A DNA stretch of 48,768 nt from an uncultured Bacteroidales bacterium (lineage in GTDB: Bacteria > Bacteroidota > Bacteroidia > Bacteroidales > UBA932): positions 1 to 48,768 of the forward strand of contig CAMHIP010000004.1 in assembly GCA_946185205.1 (NCBI GenBank). Direction: 5' to 3'. Shown piece by piece: positions 1,314 through 21,968 of this stretch. The notes beneath the pieces are model-generated. The model searched no databases and had not been told where the DNA came from. It saw nothing but the letters and a program-made list of their open reading frames with translations. The number at the start of each line of letters is the position of its first letter. Position 1 is the first letter of the stretch. The position numbers and the translations under genes are program-made.

Positions 1314-4154
1314 TTAATTGAAATCGAACCAGACGTGGATGCGCAGGCCCTCGTCGCCGGACTTGATCCGGATGTTGCCGGGCTGGCTGTGCGGCCCCTG
1401 CTGGGGGATGCTCTTGAAACTCTTGATGGCCTGGATGTCCAGGAGCAGCGAGATGTCGCCCTCCGGCAGTTCGGGCAGCAGGCGCGCCGGCACCGTCACG
1501 TCGTCGGGGTTGAAGACCTTGACGAACAGGCCGTCAGTGGCACTGTAGAGTGTCAGCGGGTGGTCGCCCTCGAGGCGGGCCCAGTAGATGTTGCCGTGGT
1601 AGCCCTTGAACTCGGGATACTCCATCGGGCCCACGGTGCCGCGGCCCGTGATGGTCTCATTGTAAGCCTTGTGCCAGAGGTCGATATTGTGGCCGCGCTG
1701 CCGGTTCTTCCAGACGCGGTAGGGGCCGCGGCCGAACCACTGCATGCCGGTCACGCCCTCTTTCGGATAGTCGAAGGTGAAGCCGAGGTCCTTGATGTCG
1801 GTGTCCATGAAGCCGTCGTCGAAGCCGCCGCGCACGCCGCCGTTGTCGCGGTTGAGCAGCACGGCTTCCATGCCGAGCCGCCCGTCGCGGCCCAGGCGCC
1901 AGACGATGCTGTCCACGGCGCCGAGGTACTTGGCCACATAGACGGCGTCGTCGCCGTCCCGGCGGGAATAGCCGCCGGTGAAGCGCATCTTGATGCCCAC
2001 CGGGCGCATGTTTCCCAGGGGCAGGACCTGCCCGTCGCGGGTAATCTGCGCCAGTTCGCCCGTGGCCGCGTCGAAGGCCGCGCTGACGCCGCGGGCGCTC
2101 AGGACGTGGCGGCCGTCCCGCTCCGCAGCGATGGCGGGTGCGGCGGCGTGCGGCCGTTTCAGCGTGCCGCCGATGCCGTGCCGTGCCAGGTAGCCGGCGG
2201 CATAGCGGATGGGCCAGGTCCAGGTGCAGATGCTGCGGCCGTCCGCCGCGAAGGCCTCGAGCTCCAGCAGGTCCCCTTCGAAGAAGTCCGCCGGCAGCTC
2301 CATGTGCATCACACCGGTGCAGTCGCGCTCCAGGGCGGGCACGGGGATGCTGCCGCTGGCGGTGATCACCGAAGCGGCGCCTTCCGCCGGGGTGCCGATC
2401 CGCTTCACGCGGTACTGCATCGTGCACTCGTCCAGCCGGCTGAAGAGGAATTTGTTGGTCACGTAGAAGTCTCCGTTCCAGGACGGGGTGATGAAGAGCT
2501 TGCGGAACTGGATAGGCGCCCAGATGTCCCGGATGGCCCAGAAGCTGCCTTCCTTCTCCCGGTAGGGGCCCACGACGCCGTCATTGCCCATGTCGAAGCT
2601 GGTGTCCAGCGCGCCGCCGCGGTCCGTGCGGGCCACGGCCTCGTCCACGAAGGCCCAGATGAAGCCGCCGGCGAAGAGCGGATGTTCCGTCCAGCTGGCC
2701 CAGAAGTCCTCCAGGCCGGCGCCGCCGCCCTGGTCGGAGTTGGTGTGCATGAACTCCGTGGGCATGAAGACCTTGTAGCCGTTGGTGAAGCGGGCCACGC
2801 CCGTCAGGTAGGTGGGGTAGTGGTGCGTGTCCAGCTGGTCGAAATCGGCCCAGGGATGGATCACGTGGCGTTTCTGCGGGTCATGCTGCGCGAAGAGGGG
2901 GTCGAGGTGCGTGTTCCAGCCGCCTTCGTTGCCGTTGTCCCAGAGGATGACGCAGGGGTGATTGACGTCGCGGCGCACCATCTCGGCCACCAGGCCCGGG
3001 CCCACCTCGTCGTCATAGCGGCCGTGCCAGCCGGCCAGCTCGTCGAGGTAGAAGAGGCCCAGCGAGTCGCATACATCGAGGAAATGCACGTCCGGCGGGT
3101 AGTGCGAGCGGATGGCGTTCATGTTCATGTCCTTGATCAGCTGCGCGTCCGACAGGGAGATGGAGCGCGAGGAGCAGCGGCCGCCCTCCGGATGGAAAAC
3201 GTGGCGGTTCACGCCCTTGAGCACGACCTTGACGCCGTTGACATAGAGCCCGTCCTGCGGCCGGAAATCCACGGTGCGGAAGCCCGTGCGGCCCTCCGTC
3301 GCGTGCAGGACCTTCCCGGCGGGGGAGAGCAGCTCGATCCGGAGGGTGTAGAGGTGCGGGTGCTCGCAGTCCCAGGGGGCGATGCCGGACCATTGCAGCT
3401 CGTGGTGGAGTTTTCCGTCATTCCCGGCCTGACCGGGAATCTCCCGCACCTGCGCCGCCGCGGCAGGGGCGGTGAGCGGCGTGAGCGTATAGCGCAGCGA
3501 GGCGCCCGCCGGAGCGTTCTCCAGCTCCAGATCCACGCCCATGCTGCCGTCGGCGCGGGCATCCAGCGCATAGTGCGCGATGTGCTCGGGGGCCGTGGCG
3601 GTCAGATAGACCGGGCGGTTGATGCCGCCGAAATTCCACCAGTCGGCGTGGCGCTCGGCGTTGTTGACGGAGGCGTTCTCCGATTCCTTGCGCACCAGGA
3701 CGTCCAGCTGGTTGGCGGCACCGTATTTCAGGAGCCGGGAAATGTCATACGAGAAGCGGTAGAAGCCGCCGTGGTGCGCGGGGCCCGCGCTCTTCCCGTT
3801 GATGCGGACCTCGGCGTCGGTCATCACGCCCTCGAAGACGATCCGCACGTCCTTGCCCCGCCAGGAGGCGGGCACCTTGAAGCGGTGGCGGTACTCGCCG
3901 TACTCGTTGAGCGGACCCTGGCCGGGCCCGAAGCCGCGGCCGTAGTTGTATTCGCCGTAGCCCTGGAATTCCCATTGCGAGGGCACCTGGATGGTGCTCC
4001 AGCGGCCGCTGCCGCTCCCGGCGGAACAGCGGAACTGCCAGGTCACGGTGTCGTCCAGACCGGTGCCGGAAAGGTAGAGGGTCTGCGTCTGCTGCGCGGC
4101 GGCGGAAATGCCGCCGAGGCAGAGTGCGAGAAAGAGGAGGATGTGGTTGCGCAT
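1314..4154 (-). CDS. Glycoside hydrolase family 2 (beta-galactosidase-like), secreted
   Basis: ORF 1314..4223; signal-peptide start MRNHILLFLALCLGGISAAAQ at 4154; GH2 motifs VNGVKVVLKGVNRHVFHPEGGR, SHYPPDVHFLDVCDSLGLFYLDE, NHPCVILWDNGNEGG. Confidence 0.88.
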   Translation of the reverse strand: MRNHILLFLALCLGGISAAAQQTQTLYLSGTGLDDTVTWQFRCSAGSGSGRWSTIQVPSQWEFQGYGEYNYGRGFGPGQGPLNEYGEYRHRFKVPASWRGKDVRIVFEGVMTDAEVRINGKSAGPAHHGGFYRFSYDISRLLKYGAANQLDVLVRKESENASVNNAERHADWWNFGGINRPVYLTATAPEHIAHYALDARADGSMGVDLELENAPAGASLRYTLTPLTAPAAAAQVREIPGQAGNDGKLHHELQWSGIAPWDCEHPHLYTLRIELLSPAGKVLHATEGRTGFRTVDFRPQDGLYVNGVKVVLKGVNRHVFHPEGGRCSSRSISLSDAQLIKDMNMNAIRSHYPPDVHFLDVCDSLGLFYLDELAGWHGRYDDEVGPGLVAEMVRRDVNHPCVILWDNGNEGGWNTHLDPLFAQHDPQKRHVIHPWADFDQLDTHHYPTYLTGVARFTNGYKVFMPTEFMHTNSDQGGGAGLEDFWASWTEHPLFAGGFIWAFVDEAVARTDRGGALDTSFDMGNDGVVGPYREKEGSFWAIRDIWAPIQFRKLFITPSWNGDFYVTNKFLFSRLDECTMQYRVKRIGTPAEGAASVITASGSIPVPALERDCTGVMHMELPADFFEGDLLELEAFAADGRSICTWTWPIRYAAGYLARHGIGGTLKRPHAAAPAIAAERDGRHVLSARGVSAAFDAATGELAQITRDGQVLPLGNMRPVGIKMRFTGGYSRRDGDDAVYVAKYLGAVDSIVWRLGRDGRLGMEAVLLNRDNGGVRGGFDDGFMDTDIKDLGFTFDYPKEGVTGMQWFGRGPYRVWKNRQRGHNIDLWHKAYNETITGRGTVGPMEYPEFKGYHGNIYWARLEGDHPLTLYSATDGLFVKVFNPDDVTVPARLLPELPEGDISLLLDIQAIKSFKSIPQQGPHSQPGNIRIKSGDEGLRIHVWFDFN
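3415..3445. repeat. Palindromic element copy A, in frame inside the GH2 gene
   Basis: CCGTCATTCCCGGCCTGACCGGGAATCTCCC (reverse complement GGGAGATTCCCGGTCAGGCCGGGAATGACGG), encoding REIPGQAGNDG. Confidence 0.85.
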
Positions 4155-10819: not shown

Positions 10820-10853
10820 AAAAAAAAGGACCGCCCTCTTGCGGGGGCGGTCC
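10820..10853 (-). terminator. Rho-independent terminator downstream of susD-1
   Basis: AGGACCGCCC-N8-GGGCGGTCCT stem; on the minus strand it is followed by an uninterrupted T run. Confidence 0.85.
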
Positions 10854-10854
10854 T

Positions 10855-10880
10855 GGGGATTCCCGATCAGGTCGGGAATG
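10855..10880. repeat. Palindromic element copy B
   Basis: GGGGATTCCCGATCAGGTCGGGAATG; CATTCCCGACctgaTCGGGAATC hairpin 3 nt downstream of the susD-1 stop. Confidence 0.75.
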
Positions 10881-10883
10881 TGC

Positions 10884-13075: not shown

Positions 13076-16000
13076 TTATAGGGTGACGTTCAGACCGAAG
13101 GTGAAGGTCTTGGCGATCGGGTAGGCGCCGCGGTCGATACCCGGAGTAGGGAAGCCGTAGCTGCCGCTGCGGTTGGTGTTGACCTCGGGATCCAGACCGG
13201 TGTACTTGGTGAAGGTCAGGAGGTTGGTGGCGGTGAAGTAGGCACGGAGGTTCTTCAGGCCGATCTTCTTGACCCACTCCTTGGGCAGGGTGTAGCCGAT
13301 GGTGAGGTTCTTCAGACGCAGGAAGGAGGCGTCCTCCACCCACTTGTCGAAGAGCATACCCTTCATGGAAGTCGGGGTGTGCATGGTGGCGTTCGCGTTC
13401 ATGCGGTCCAGTTCGGCCGGGTCGGAGACGAACTCGAGCTCGCCGCCGTTCCAGCGGTACGGGGAATAGGCATCCTTGGCGAAGGCCAGGCGGTTGGCGC
13501 CGAACATGTTGTCCTTGGCTCCGTACAGGGAGTGGAGACCCCAGTAGTTGATGAGGTGTCCGCCGATGGCGTAGTTGAAGTTGACCCCGAAGTCGAGGTT
13601 CTTCCAGCGGCCGTTGATGTTGAAGGAACCGGTGCTGCGCGGGGTCATCTCGCCGATGACGTAGGTGTCACCTTCGTTGATGATCTTGGCGTTGTCATCC
13701 ATGTTGGCCACCTTGGCTGCGCCCGGGAAGGCCTGCTGGCCCGTGGCACGCGGCAGGGAGGTGAAGTAGGAGTCGGCGGCCCAGTCGGGGATACCCTCTT
13801 TCAGTTTGTAAACTCCGTCCACGTAGTCGAAGTCGGAGGTGGTGTACCAGCCCTCGTACTTGTAGCCGGTGATGGTGCCGATGGCCATGCCTTCGCGGAG
13901 GATGAACTCACCGGCGGTCGGCATATGCTCGGAGTTGGCCCACTGGCCGTAGGTGTTGACGGCCACGGCGTCGGAGAGCTGCTCGATCTTGTTGACGTTG
14001 TAGTTGTAGATGAGGTTGGCGCTCAGGGTGAAGTCGCTCGTGCGGACGATGTCGCCGCCGAGGGAGAACTCGAGACCGCGGTTGGCGACGACGCCCATGT
14101 TCTGGTACTGGTAGGAGTAACCGGTGGCGGCGTTGACGGAGACCGGCATGAGCAGGTCCTTGGTGGTGGACCAGTAGCCCTCGATGGTACCGTAGAGGCG
14201 GTCATCCCAGAAGCCGAAGTCGATACCGAGGTTGCGGGTGATGGTGCTCTCCCACTTCAGGTCGGGGTTCTGCATCATGGAGCCCGGAGCGTAGCTGTAG
14301 CCGTAGCCGCTGTTGGTATCGCTGCGGTCGTTGGAGATGGTGTAGTTGGAGGCGCTGGTGCCCAGGGCCCAGGTCTCGCGCCAGAGGTTGGCGTTGATGG
14401 CGTCGGAACCGGTCACACCGTAGGAGAGGCGGAGCTTGAGGTTGGAGAGCCAGTCCTTGCTGCCCTGCATCCAGGGCTCGTCGATGACGCGCCAGGCGAA
14501 GGCCGCGGCAGGGAAGTAACCCCAGCGGTTGTTGGGCGCGAAACGGGAGGAACCGTCAGCACGGAACGTGAGCGTGAAGAGGTAGCGGTCATAGAGCGCG
14601 TAGTTGGCGCGGGTGAAGAAGGACAGCGAACGGCCCGGCACGTCGATGCTCTGCGTGAAGGCGTTGTTGGTCGTGCCCTGGCTCAGCATGGCGAGGGCGC
14701 GCTCCCGGTCGAAGTGGGACGGGAACACCTGGGCGTAGTACTGCATCCACTCGGAGGAAGAGGAAATGTACTCCTGTCCGACCATGACGTCGGCGCGGTG
14801 GATGTCCTTGTTGGCGAACGGAATGTCGTAGGAGATGGTGTTGGTCCAGTGCAGGTCGCCGCTTTCGCTGCGGTTCAGGGCGGCGGTGTTGGTCAAGGTG
14901 CCGTAGCCCGAGGAATAGGTCTCCGTCTTGGTGAAGCTCTTGGCCAGACCGATTTCGGAACGGAGCTTGAGTCCCTCGATGGGGGTCCAGTTGGCGGCGG
15001 CGATGCCGCGGAAGTTGTGATTGAATCTCGTATTCTGCTGGGCCAGGGTCAGCTCCACAGGGTTGGAGGATTCGCTGATGTAGGCCTCAAGGCCGGCGCC
15101 GAAGCCGCCGGTGGAAGAGGGATCGCCGAGCGGGTTGGGGATCGGGTTGTAGCGGAACGATTCCGCGAGACGCGGGTTCGAACGGCTGTTCGAATAGCCG
15201 TAGGAGACGTTCAGTTCGATGTTGAAGTTGTCCGTGAGGTTCTCCACGGTCTTCAGGGAGGCGTTGGCACGCTGGAACCAGGAGTTGATGACCGTACCGT
15301 CGTCGTTCAGGAAGTTGAGCGAGAAGATGGTGCGGTTCCGCTTGGTACCGTTGCTGATGGTGAGGTTGTGGCTGTGGGCGATGGCCGTCTTGTAGAGGTC
15401 GCTCTGCCAGTTCTTGGTCTTCACGTTGGCGTAGGCGGAATACTTGTCGCCGTTGGCGGCGCCGATGCCGAAGTACTTGGCGATCTGGTCGCCCATGGAC
15501 TTGGAGTAATCCCAGCCGTAGCCGATGGTGAATTTCAGGTAGTCATAGGTATCCATGACGTCGCGGACGTTCATGGAGGAGTCCTTGATCTGCACGAAGC
15601 CGTTGTAGGTCACCTGGGTCTGGCCCTCGATGGCGCTCTTGGTCGTGACGATGACGACGCCGGAGGCACCGCGGCTACCATAGATGGCCGTTGCGGCGGC
15701 GTCCTTCAGGACGTTGATGCTCTTGATCTGGTCGGAAGGGATGCCGGCGAGCGAGCCCACCGGGAAACCGTCCACGATGTAGAGCGGGTTGTTGGTCTGG
15801 GTGATAGACTTGGTACCGCGCACGCGGATCTGCGGCTCGGCGCCCGGGGTGCCGTCGTTCATCGAGACGACCACGCCGGGGAGTTTGCCCTGCAGGGCCT
15901 CGCCGACGTTGGCGACCGGGGTGGCGAGGTCTTTCTCGCCGACGGCTGCGACGGAACCGGTCAGGTCGCGGACCTTGACGGTGCCGTAGCCGATGACGAC

Positions 16001-16457: not shown

Positions 16458-16490
16458 CAAAAATAAAAGCCGCACCGGAGGGGTGCGGCT
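16458..16490 (-). terminator. Rho-independent terminator downstream of susD-2
   Basis: GCCGCACC-N5-GGTGCGGC followed on the minus strand by TTTTATTTTTG. Confidence 0.85.
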
Positions 16491-16492
16491 CA

Positions 16493-16524
16493 GGAGAGAT
16501 TCCCGGTCAAGCCGGGAATGACGG
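16493..16524. repeat. Palindromic element copy C
   Basis: GGAGAGATTCCCGGTCAAGCCGGGAATGACGG immediately downstream of the susD-2 stop. Confidence 0.85.
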
Positions 16525-16534
16525 GGATTTGCTG

Positions 16535-18187
16535 CTACCAGCCGGGGTTCTGCTGATACAGGCCCGGGGCGGCGTTGGTCTCGCTGATTGGAATCGGCAG
16601 GAAGTGGCGGCCTTCCTGAATGTTGTTGGCATTCATGTTGGTCCGGTATTCGCCGTCGATCTTGTAGTTGTCCCACATCGCCTTGGTGGCTTCTTTCCAT
16701 TCGCCGTAGCGGACTTCGTCGAACCAGCGGACGCCTTCCTGGTAGAGCTCGAGCTTGCGCTCCAGCTTGACCCATTTCATGGCATCCTCCTTGGAGGCGC
16801 TTGCGCTGCGCTCCGGCACGCCGGCGCGTTTGCGGATCTGGTTCACGAGGGCCATGGCCTGATCCACGTTGCCATCCTCGACAAAGAGTTCGGCCTGCAG
16901 GAGCATCATGTCCTCGTAGCGCAGGATCGGGAAGTTGATCGGCCACTGGTTGCGGGAGCCGGTGCTCGTTCCGATGGAGGCATCGTCAAAGGAGACACCC
17001 ACTTCCGCACGCTTGGGGAGCGTCGGGCAGAACTTGATGTTGATGGCATTCTCGATGGACTCGATGGCGGCACCGTTGTACTGGAACGTCGTCGTCCTGG
17101 AGGAATAGGGCTGGATGGAGCCCTTCCCCTCATAACCGTCGAGGAACGACCAGCCGGCGCCGCGGAGGTCACCGTTGGAAACGAATTCGTAACGCAGGGT
17201 TCCCTCGGGGTAAACCGAAGTCATGCCGGATCCCGAGTGATAGGAATCGACGACGATGTCGGGATTCTCGATGCCGACGCCTTCTTCGAAGGTGATGGTG
17301 TTTCCGGTACCCAGACGGTGCTGGATGGCGAAGATTTGGTACTTGTTGGCGGTATCGTTGTCGGTGACCCACTGCTTTTTCCACTCCGTGATGGTCGGGG
17401 CGAAATACGCGGAACCATTCTGCAGGACCTTGGTCAGGTATTCCTGGGCCTTGGCCTTGGCGGAGCTGTCATTGAAGGGGAAGCCCTTGAGGGTCATGTA
17501 AACGCGGGCGAGCAGGGCCTGGGCGGCGAGCTTGTCGGCGCGGCCGTTGTTGGCAACGCTGCCACCGGTGGCGTTCTTCATAGAAGCCCGGTAGGGGAGC
17601 AAGCCCTCAGCCTGGACCAGGTCGGTGATAGCTGCTTCGATCACGGCCTTCGGCTCGCTCTGGGCGATTTCCTTGGACTCGGACACCGACAGGACCTTGG
17701 TGATGACGGGCACGCTGCCGAAGGTGCGGGCCAGTTCGAAGTGGGCCAGGCCGCGCAGGAAGAGAAGCTCTCCCTTGAACTGGTTCTTGACGGCCTCGTC
17801 GGAGAACTCGACGGCGTCAATGTTGGCCAGGACCGTGTTGGCATTGTAGATCAGGGCATACCAGCCGGCCCAGAGGCTGCCCAGTTCGCCCAGGGAGCTG
17901 TTGATACGCAGGAAAGCGACTTCGGAGCAGGAACGGACGCCGTTCGGATCCGGATCCGCCCAGATGTTGTCGGAGCGGTCTTCGGAGAAGAGCAGATACT
18001 GCGGATTCTCGATGGCGATCAGTTTGGAATAGACACCCAGCACACCGGATTCGATATGTGCAGGCGTGGTGTAGAAACCATCCGGAGAAAGGGAGCCCAC
18101 CGGCGGTTCGTTGAGGTAATCCTGGCAGGAGACGGCCGCGACGGCAGCGACGGCGGCGATCAGGACGTATTTGATATTCTTCAACAT
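16535..18187 (-). CDS. RagB/SusD family outer-membrane lipoprotein (550 aa)
   Basis: MLKNIKYVLIAAVAAVAAVSCQDYLNEPPVGSLSPDGFYTTPAHIESGVLGVYSKL; RYEDMMLLQAELFVEDGNVDQAMALVNQIRKRAG. Confidence 0.94.
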   Translation of the reverse strand: MLKNIKYVLIAAVAAVAAVSCQDYLNEPPVGSLSPDGFYTTPAHIESGVLGVYSKLIAIENPQYLLFSEDRSDNIWADPDPNGVRSCSEVAFLRINSSLGELGSLWAGWYALIYNANTVLANIDAVEFSDEAVKNQFKGELLFLRGLAHFELARTFGSVPVITKVLSVSESKEIAQSEPKAVIEAAITDLVQAEGLLPYRASMKNATGGSVANNGRADKLAAQALLARVYMTLKGFPFNDSSAKAKAQEYLTKVLQNGSAYFAPTITEWKKQWVTDNDTANKYQIFAIQHRLGTGNTITFEEGVGIENPDIVVDSYHSGSGMTSVYPEGTLRYEFVSNGDLRGAGWSFLDGYEGKGSIQPYSSRTTTFQYNGAAIESIENAINIKFCPTLPKRAEVGVSFDDASIGTSTGSRNQWPINFPILRYEDMMLLQAELFVEDGNVDQAMALVNQIRKRAGVPERSASASKEDAMKWVKLERKLELYQEGVRWFDEVRYGEWKEATKAMWDNYKIDGEYRTNMNANNIQEGRHFLPIPISETNAAPGLYQQNPGW

Positions 18188-21589: not shown

Positions 21590-21623
21590 CAAAAATAAAA
21601 GCCGCACCGGGAGGGGTGCGGCT
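21590..21623 (-). terminator. Rho-independent terminator downstream of rhaM
   Basis: AAAAATAAAAGCCGCACCGGGAGGGGTGCGGC, near-identical to the terminator at 16458-16490. Confidence 0.85.
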
Positions 21624-21625
21624 CG

Positions 21626-21650
21626 GGGAGAGATTCCCGGTCAAGCCGGG
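21626..21650. repeat. Palindromic element copy D
   Basis: GGGAGAGATTCCCGGTCAAGCCGGG, directly abutting the rhaM stop codon (21651-21653). Confidence 0.8.
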
Positions 21651-21968
21651 CTATTCCATATAGAAACGCTCGTCGAGCGGGATGGAGACGGGGGAGTTGT
21701 CGGGATTGACTTCCATGATGTCGGCCATGTAGTCCCACCATTTCTGGACCACCGGGTTACCGCCCAGGTCCTGGGAACCCTCGTCGCCTTCGACTTCCTG
21801 GTAGGCGAACAGGATGTTGGTGTCCTTGTCCCACCAGATGGAGTAATTCTTCACGCCGCTGTCGGACAGGAGTTTCTTGAGTTCGGGCCAGATGGCCGCG
21901 TGCCTGCGCTGGTATTCGTCTTCGAAACCAGGCTTCAGGAACATTTTGAATGCTTCTCTTCTTGCCAT
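21651..21968 (-). CDS. rhaM: L-rhamnose mutarotase
   Basis: 105 aa: MARREAFKMFLKPGFEDEYQRRHAAIWPELKKLLSDSGVKNYSIWWDKDTNILFAYQEVE..., typical of the L-rhamnose mutarotase family. Confidence 0.88.
   Translation of the reverse strand: MARREAFKMFLKPGFEDEYQRRHAAIWPELKKLLSDSGVKNYSIWWDKDTNILFAYQEVEGDEGSQDLGGNPVVQKWWDYMADIMEVNPDNSPVSIPLDERFYME

Follow-up and report, generated by a model that had tools for sequence, protein, structure and literature searches.

A CGTC-tagged REP beside an ordinary terminator downstream of susD-2 in a Ca. Cryptobacteroides genome

Described REP families and the palindrome downstream of susD-2

REPs are short, non-autonomous, dispersed elements, and the CGTC-tagged ones (CGTC-1 to CGTC-4) were defined by Di Nocera et al. 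2013 (PMC3733652). The published definition comprises a CGTC tag, its TGTC variants included, AT at the base of the stem, an 8-bp stem and a 5-nt loop; the ranges given for these elements are a tag of CGTC or TGTC/CCTC, a stem of 8-9 bp, a loop of 4-5 nt and a tail that is mostly CCA (PMC3733652). Their hosts include Bacteroidetes, and no transposase was found for them (PMC3733652); a limited search of the later literature returned none either. The dRS3 repeats of Neisseria (CGTC-1) and the RPE-6 and RPE-4 elements of Rickettsia (CGTC-1 and CGTC-4) belong to this superfamily (PMC3733652), while the GTAG REPs and REPINs, which are moved by RAYT (TnpA-REP), are a further group of short tagged hairpins that are dispersed and biased towards extragenic 3' positions. 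In the literature that we searched, there was no description of CGTC REPs in Cryptobacteroides.

In this study, we analysed a stretch of 48,768 nucleotides (the window), which is contig C4 of an incomplete Ca. Cryptobacteroides MAG (2.06 Mb, 157 contigs, 78% complete), whose named relatives are Ca. Cryptobacteroides and other rumen or gut Bacteroidales MAGs. The palindrome downstream of susD-2, CCGTCATTCCCGGCTTGACCGGGAATCTC, is one copy of an element with the consensus of a CGTC tag, a stem AT-N-CC-S-G-R that pairs with Y-C-S-GG-N-AT, a loop of CTTGA or CCTGA and a CTC tail. In the near-intact copies, GTCAT was present in 100%, and the preceding base was C in 73% and T in 17%. The tag, the invariant AT at the stem base, the 8-bp stem and the 5-nt loop all match the published defining features, and the palindrome is very probably a CGTC-tagged REP that was inserted beside an independent terminator. 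The pairing of the stem is maintained among the copies: three stem pairs vary with compensation and 97.7% of the cells are paired; 41 double-change cells were counted where shuffles gave 13.3, and the covariation score was 0.407, compared to at most 0.135 when slid.

The elements described here resemble the published CGTC REPs in their CGTC or TGTC tag, the 8-bp stem that starts with AT and the 5-nt loop, which is the geometry of family 2, the short tail, the bias to 3' ends and the occurrence of some intragenic copies (PMC3733652). They appear to differ in the small number of head-to-head dimers, which are common in the superfamily, and their tail is CTC (T 98%, C 80%) and not the published CCA. 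Similar to the REP described here, the Rickettsia RPEs lie inside protein genes, although the stem and loop sequences and the hosts of dRS3 and the RPEs are different, and in Neisseria and Wolbachia most of the copies occur in clusters whereas those found here are dispersed (PMC3733652). The elements are not of the GTAG type, as their tag is CGTC; RAYT-like Y1 genes are present in this genome, but they are diverged from the curated RAYT model and are not flanked by the repeats.

Three 3' ends in the window

The two-hairpin 3' end that the earlier note had described downstream of susD-2 is present exactly as it was stated (Table 1). The susD-2 stop lies at 16535, with a gap of 12 bp to the element; next after the palindrome, the minus strand from 16491 to 16467 reads GAGCCGCACCCCTCCGGTGCGGCTTTTATTTTT, and folding the 3' end as RNA gave two separate hairpins (z = -4.9). 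The same arrangement had been claimed after rhaM and susD-1, where the order of stop, palindrome and terminator was indeed found, but not an intact palindrome. The rhaM stop (21651-21653) lies directly against CCGGG, and the palindrome at this site is without its tag and outer stem, which leaves a 5-bp stem, while the susD-1 palindrome has a decayed tag and another loop and is followed by a terminator with a different stem. The identities of the susC, susD and rhaM genes were backed by Pfam. A search with the 29-mer found two matches in the window at up to three mismatches, compared to none in 100 shuffles, and the second of these (3415-3443), which the earlier note had not mentioned, lies within the coding sequence of a GH2 gene. 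An Rfam scan of the window had no match other than tRNA.

Table 1. REP copies and intrinsic terminators in the window
Feature	Position	Strand	Basis
Intact CGTC-tagged REP copy in the gap between the susD-2 stop and terminator	16498..16522 (with flanks 16496-16524)	-	Sequence and genome pattern search
Intrinsic terminator (10-bp stem and T run) that ends the susD-2 transcript	16467..16491	-	Hairpin search and folding
Truncated REP copy adjoining the rhaM stop	21632..21650	-	Sequence, folding; orthologous sites of G065 and G008 are REP-free
Intrinsic terminator 3' of rhaM	21599..21624	-	Hairpin search; near-identical stem in REP-free G065
REP copy directly 3' of the susD-1 stop; tag decayed (CACAT in place of GTCAT), loop CCTGA	10858..10882	-	
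Intrinsic terminator of the susD-1 transcript	10827..10854	-	Hairpin search and folding
Fourth REP copy, antisense inside the GH2 gene 1314-4154(-), read as EIPGQAGND	3417..3441	+	

The near-identity of the susD-2 and rhaM tracts over about 60 bp, which had also been pointed out, was confirmed: in an alignment of 61 columns, the tracts differ by a single mismatch and two 1-base gaps, and the aligned region runs from CCCGG inside the REP to the T-run of the terminator. It could be argued that this likeness comes solely from a tandem duplication of susCD that included the upstream intergenic region, and the paralogous susC 5' regions do align at an offset of 5.1 kb with 72-79% identity. This explanation is unlikely, however, as the tract is about 95% identical, which is far above the value for the susC copies, and the local alignment ends at the tract ends, one of which is inside the REP, which favours a later local exchange. 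Judging from the sequence, the tract was probably generated by local copying, exchange or recombination with one end inside the REP.

Distribution and turnover of the copies

A degenerate pattern revealed about 46 copies in the genome, compared to none for the reversed control pattern. This agrees with the mobile REP-like element that the earlier note had proposed, and the copies strongly favour sites directly downstream of stop codons. The positional statistics were based on 448 kb of sampled stretches and on the loci of all of the pattern-matched copies, with 47 sites classified and with gene calls from a home-made codon-usage model (coding density 0.91). Among the intergenic copies, 19 of 29 are no more than 35 bp away from a stop codon, compared to an expected 11.5% (p = 9e-12), 16 of these 19 are in sense with the gene (p = 0.004), and in the copies just after stops the tag mostly faces the stop codon. 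Among the 47 sites, a single pair (C3 5329/5381) was clearly head-to-head, and there were a few direct arrays. A small tandem array at G000 C63:7163-7263 consists of three direct REP copies with a period of 38 bp and a changed loop-side pair.

Fifteen copies lie inside genes, 12 of them antisense. The intragenic antisense copies are nearly all read in one frame and encode peptides such as EIPGQAGND, EIPDQVRDD and EMPGQAGHD. The host genes, named tentatively from their sequences, include ftsK, which has two copies, and genes for cytidylate kinase, an FAD oxidoreductase, a sigma factor and an indolepyruvate oxidoreductase-like protein. In ftsK, the two in-frame REPs lie in a linker (G000 C43:14813-14837 and 14927-14951), and the single in-frame REP of the cytidylate kinase gene is close to the gene end.

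A comparison with relatives revealed turnover. At the orthologous 3' end of rhaM, neither G065 nor G008 has a REP, and the terminator (GCCGCACC...GGTGCGGC) is kept in G065. At the orthologous susD-1 site, G015 has the terminator alone, two paralogous loci of G008 carry unrelated palindromes, and there is none in G065. The GH2 REP is missing from most of the Cryptobacteroides homologues (L206, L209 and L213) as well as from those of flavobacteria; in G008 (L204), it has expanded into an array, and in L205 it is decayed. The REP of the FAD oxidoreductase lies in the same linker in G000, G008, G065 and G155, and is absent from G015, G144, G058 and G127. In the orthologous oxidoreductase genes L137, L138, L142 and L146, the same-site REPs have different stem variants, each of which is self-complementary, which suggests either compensatory evolution or replacement in place. 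In a further orthologue (L158, G005 C159), a palindrome of another type (GTCATACCGA) lies close to this linker, which hints at a recurrent REP target. The orthologous sites that were compared lie in variable linkers, and none of them yielded a clean insertion in which the target was unaltered. Across 73 congeners, the copy number of the same pattern ranged from 0 to 67, with 41 genomes positive, and in a second set 15 of 38 genomes were positive; the control had zero hits in both sets.

These observations bear on the two possibilities that were offered in the earlier note, i.e., a mobile REP-like element or a conserved 3' module for PUL transcripts. The first one agrees with the copy number, the stop bias, the anatomy, the turnover and the presence of RAYT-like genes; the second one was not supported. 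A conserved module, in which the palindrome and the terminator would jointly protect or process the PUL mRNAs, is suggested by the order of stop, palindrome and terminator at three PUL transcripts in the window, and by the fact that both hairpins are stable and two of the tracts are near-identical. Nevertheless, we consider it very improbable and reject a PUL-specific 3' module. A separate terminator was found at 3 of 19 REP-bearing 3' ends and at 9 of 71 other 3' ends (Fisher p = 0.71), which equals the background, and therefore the supposed co-occurrence of REP and terminator is not general. Moreover, the rhaM and susD-1 terminators persist in relatives that have no REP or an unrelated palindrome, and thus the two hairpins are independent parts; copies are also found after and inside non-PUL genes such as those for FtsK, cytidylate kinase, the sigma factor and the FAD oxidoreductase. 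The apparent module is very probably a REP that was inserted beside an older, ordinary terminator.

It might also be proposed that the REPs are kept mainly as RNA stabilisers or attenuators where many operons end, and that transposition is a minor or ancient process. The strong stop-codon bias, the sense orientation and the maintained stem pairing are in line with this, and such roles have already been proposed for REPs in general. However, the elements are patchy within one genus, with sister species that differ widely (e.g., G033 vs. G072), about a third of the copies are intragenic and mostly antisense, and compensation is also expected from the recognition of single-stranded DNA hairpins, which makes this explanation rather unlikely. 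For a REP that was inserted beside a terminator, we envisage that copies would spread as single-stranded hairpins and that selection would leave them at tolerated places, i.e., after stops and in surface loops. Each copy would add a stable 3' RNA hairpin that may shield the mRNA end, although the operon would not require it; a 3' hairpin of this kind may affect mRNA stability generally.

RAYT-like genes as candidate mobilisers

The earlier note had also raised the question of a RAYT elsewhere in the genome, and diverged RAYT-like Y1 genes were found there. The Y1_Tnp genes of G000 match PF01797 at the cut-off, and in the alignment of their products of about 290 aa, the NHVH motif is invariant and a Tyr is conserved; they thus combine the HUH motif, the catalytic Tyr and the Y1_Tnp domain that characterise RAYTs. 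The NCBIfam RAYT model scored them at E 1.5e-9 and 37.9 bits, which is below its cut-off of 80. One RAYT-like gene (L021, G000 C19:22233-22922) has lost most of its C-terminal region by deletion and has full-length paralogues on C21 and C111. A RAYT-like gene of G000 lies at C21:1108-1968.

A second GTCAT...ATC family with another inner hairpin (GTCATTCTGAGCGAAGCGAAGAATC / GTCATCCTGAGCGCAGCGAAGGATC) reaches up to 111 copies per genome in the set G000-G072 (e.g., in G072, G042 and G028), and the loads of the two families are correlated across genomes (rho 0.42). When both families were counted in the 73 congeners, a RAYT-like gene was present in all 42 genomes with at least three REPs and in 20 of the 31 others (p = 2.4e-5); for this comparison, the initial counts were already known when the threshold and the refined RAYT profile were chosen. 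With a threshold of one REP, the figures were 49 of 52 and 13 of 21 (p = 0.0014), and with the stock PF01797 model 40 of 42 and 16 of 31. When REP presence was simulated along a tree built from the rpoB genes of 46 genomes, P was about 0.010 for zero REP-bearing genomes among the eight RAYT-free tips. The custom profile was built on one Y1 subtype (A2), and more distant subtypes also match it; a split into Y1 subtypes by the PF01797 match range was not decisive. Many of the RAYT-bearing genomes have no REP of either family tested.

A cognate RAYT that is flanked by its own REPs was not found at the RAYT-like loci examined: no RAYT-like gene was bracketed by REPs, a REP lay within 1.5 kb at 2 of 32 loci, and most of 30 later loci were without any. 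About 450 bp downstream of one RAYT-like gene (L292, G139 C11), two other GTCAT-tagged hairpin types, GTCATTTCGAGCG...GAGAAATC and GTCATTCCACGGCTTGTCCGTGGAATC, occupy positions 1612-1677.

A Y1 (HUH) transposase of the RAYT type would act in trans on the REP copies, and it is possible, though doubtful, that the REPs spread in this manner. In its more specific form, which we put forward equally tentatively, the CGTC/GTCAT REPs of Cryptobacteroides would be moved in trans by a diverged family of RAYT-like HUH proteins of about 290 residues that reads the shared GTCAT...ATC ends, and the ATTCCCGG-type and GTCATTCTGAGCGAAGCGAAGAATC-type families would share this machinery. The association between REPs and RAYT-like genes is a correlation across genomes, to be regarded as a lead and not a demonstration.

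The REP described here belongs to a known kind of element, is found in a host genus new for it and lies beside an ordinary terminator; a REP in such a position should not be taken for a regulatory module of PULs. The CGTC REPs gain an example that extends across a genus, including intragenic copies that encode in-frame peptides in conserved proteins. Additionally, the availability of more than 100 genomes for this genus, some with about 110 REPs and others with none, makes the question of the CGTC REP mobiliser testable, with the RAYT-like genes as candidates.
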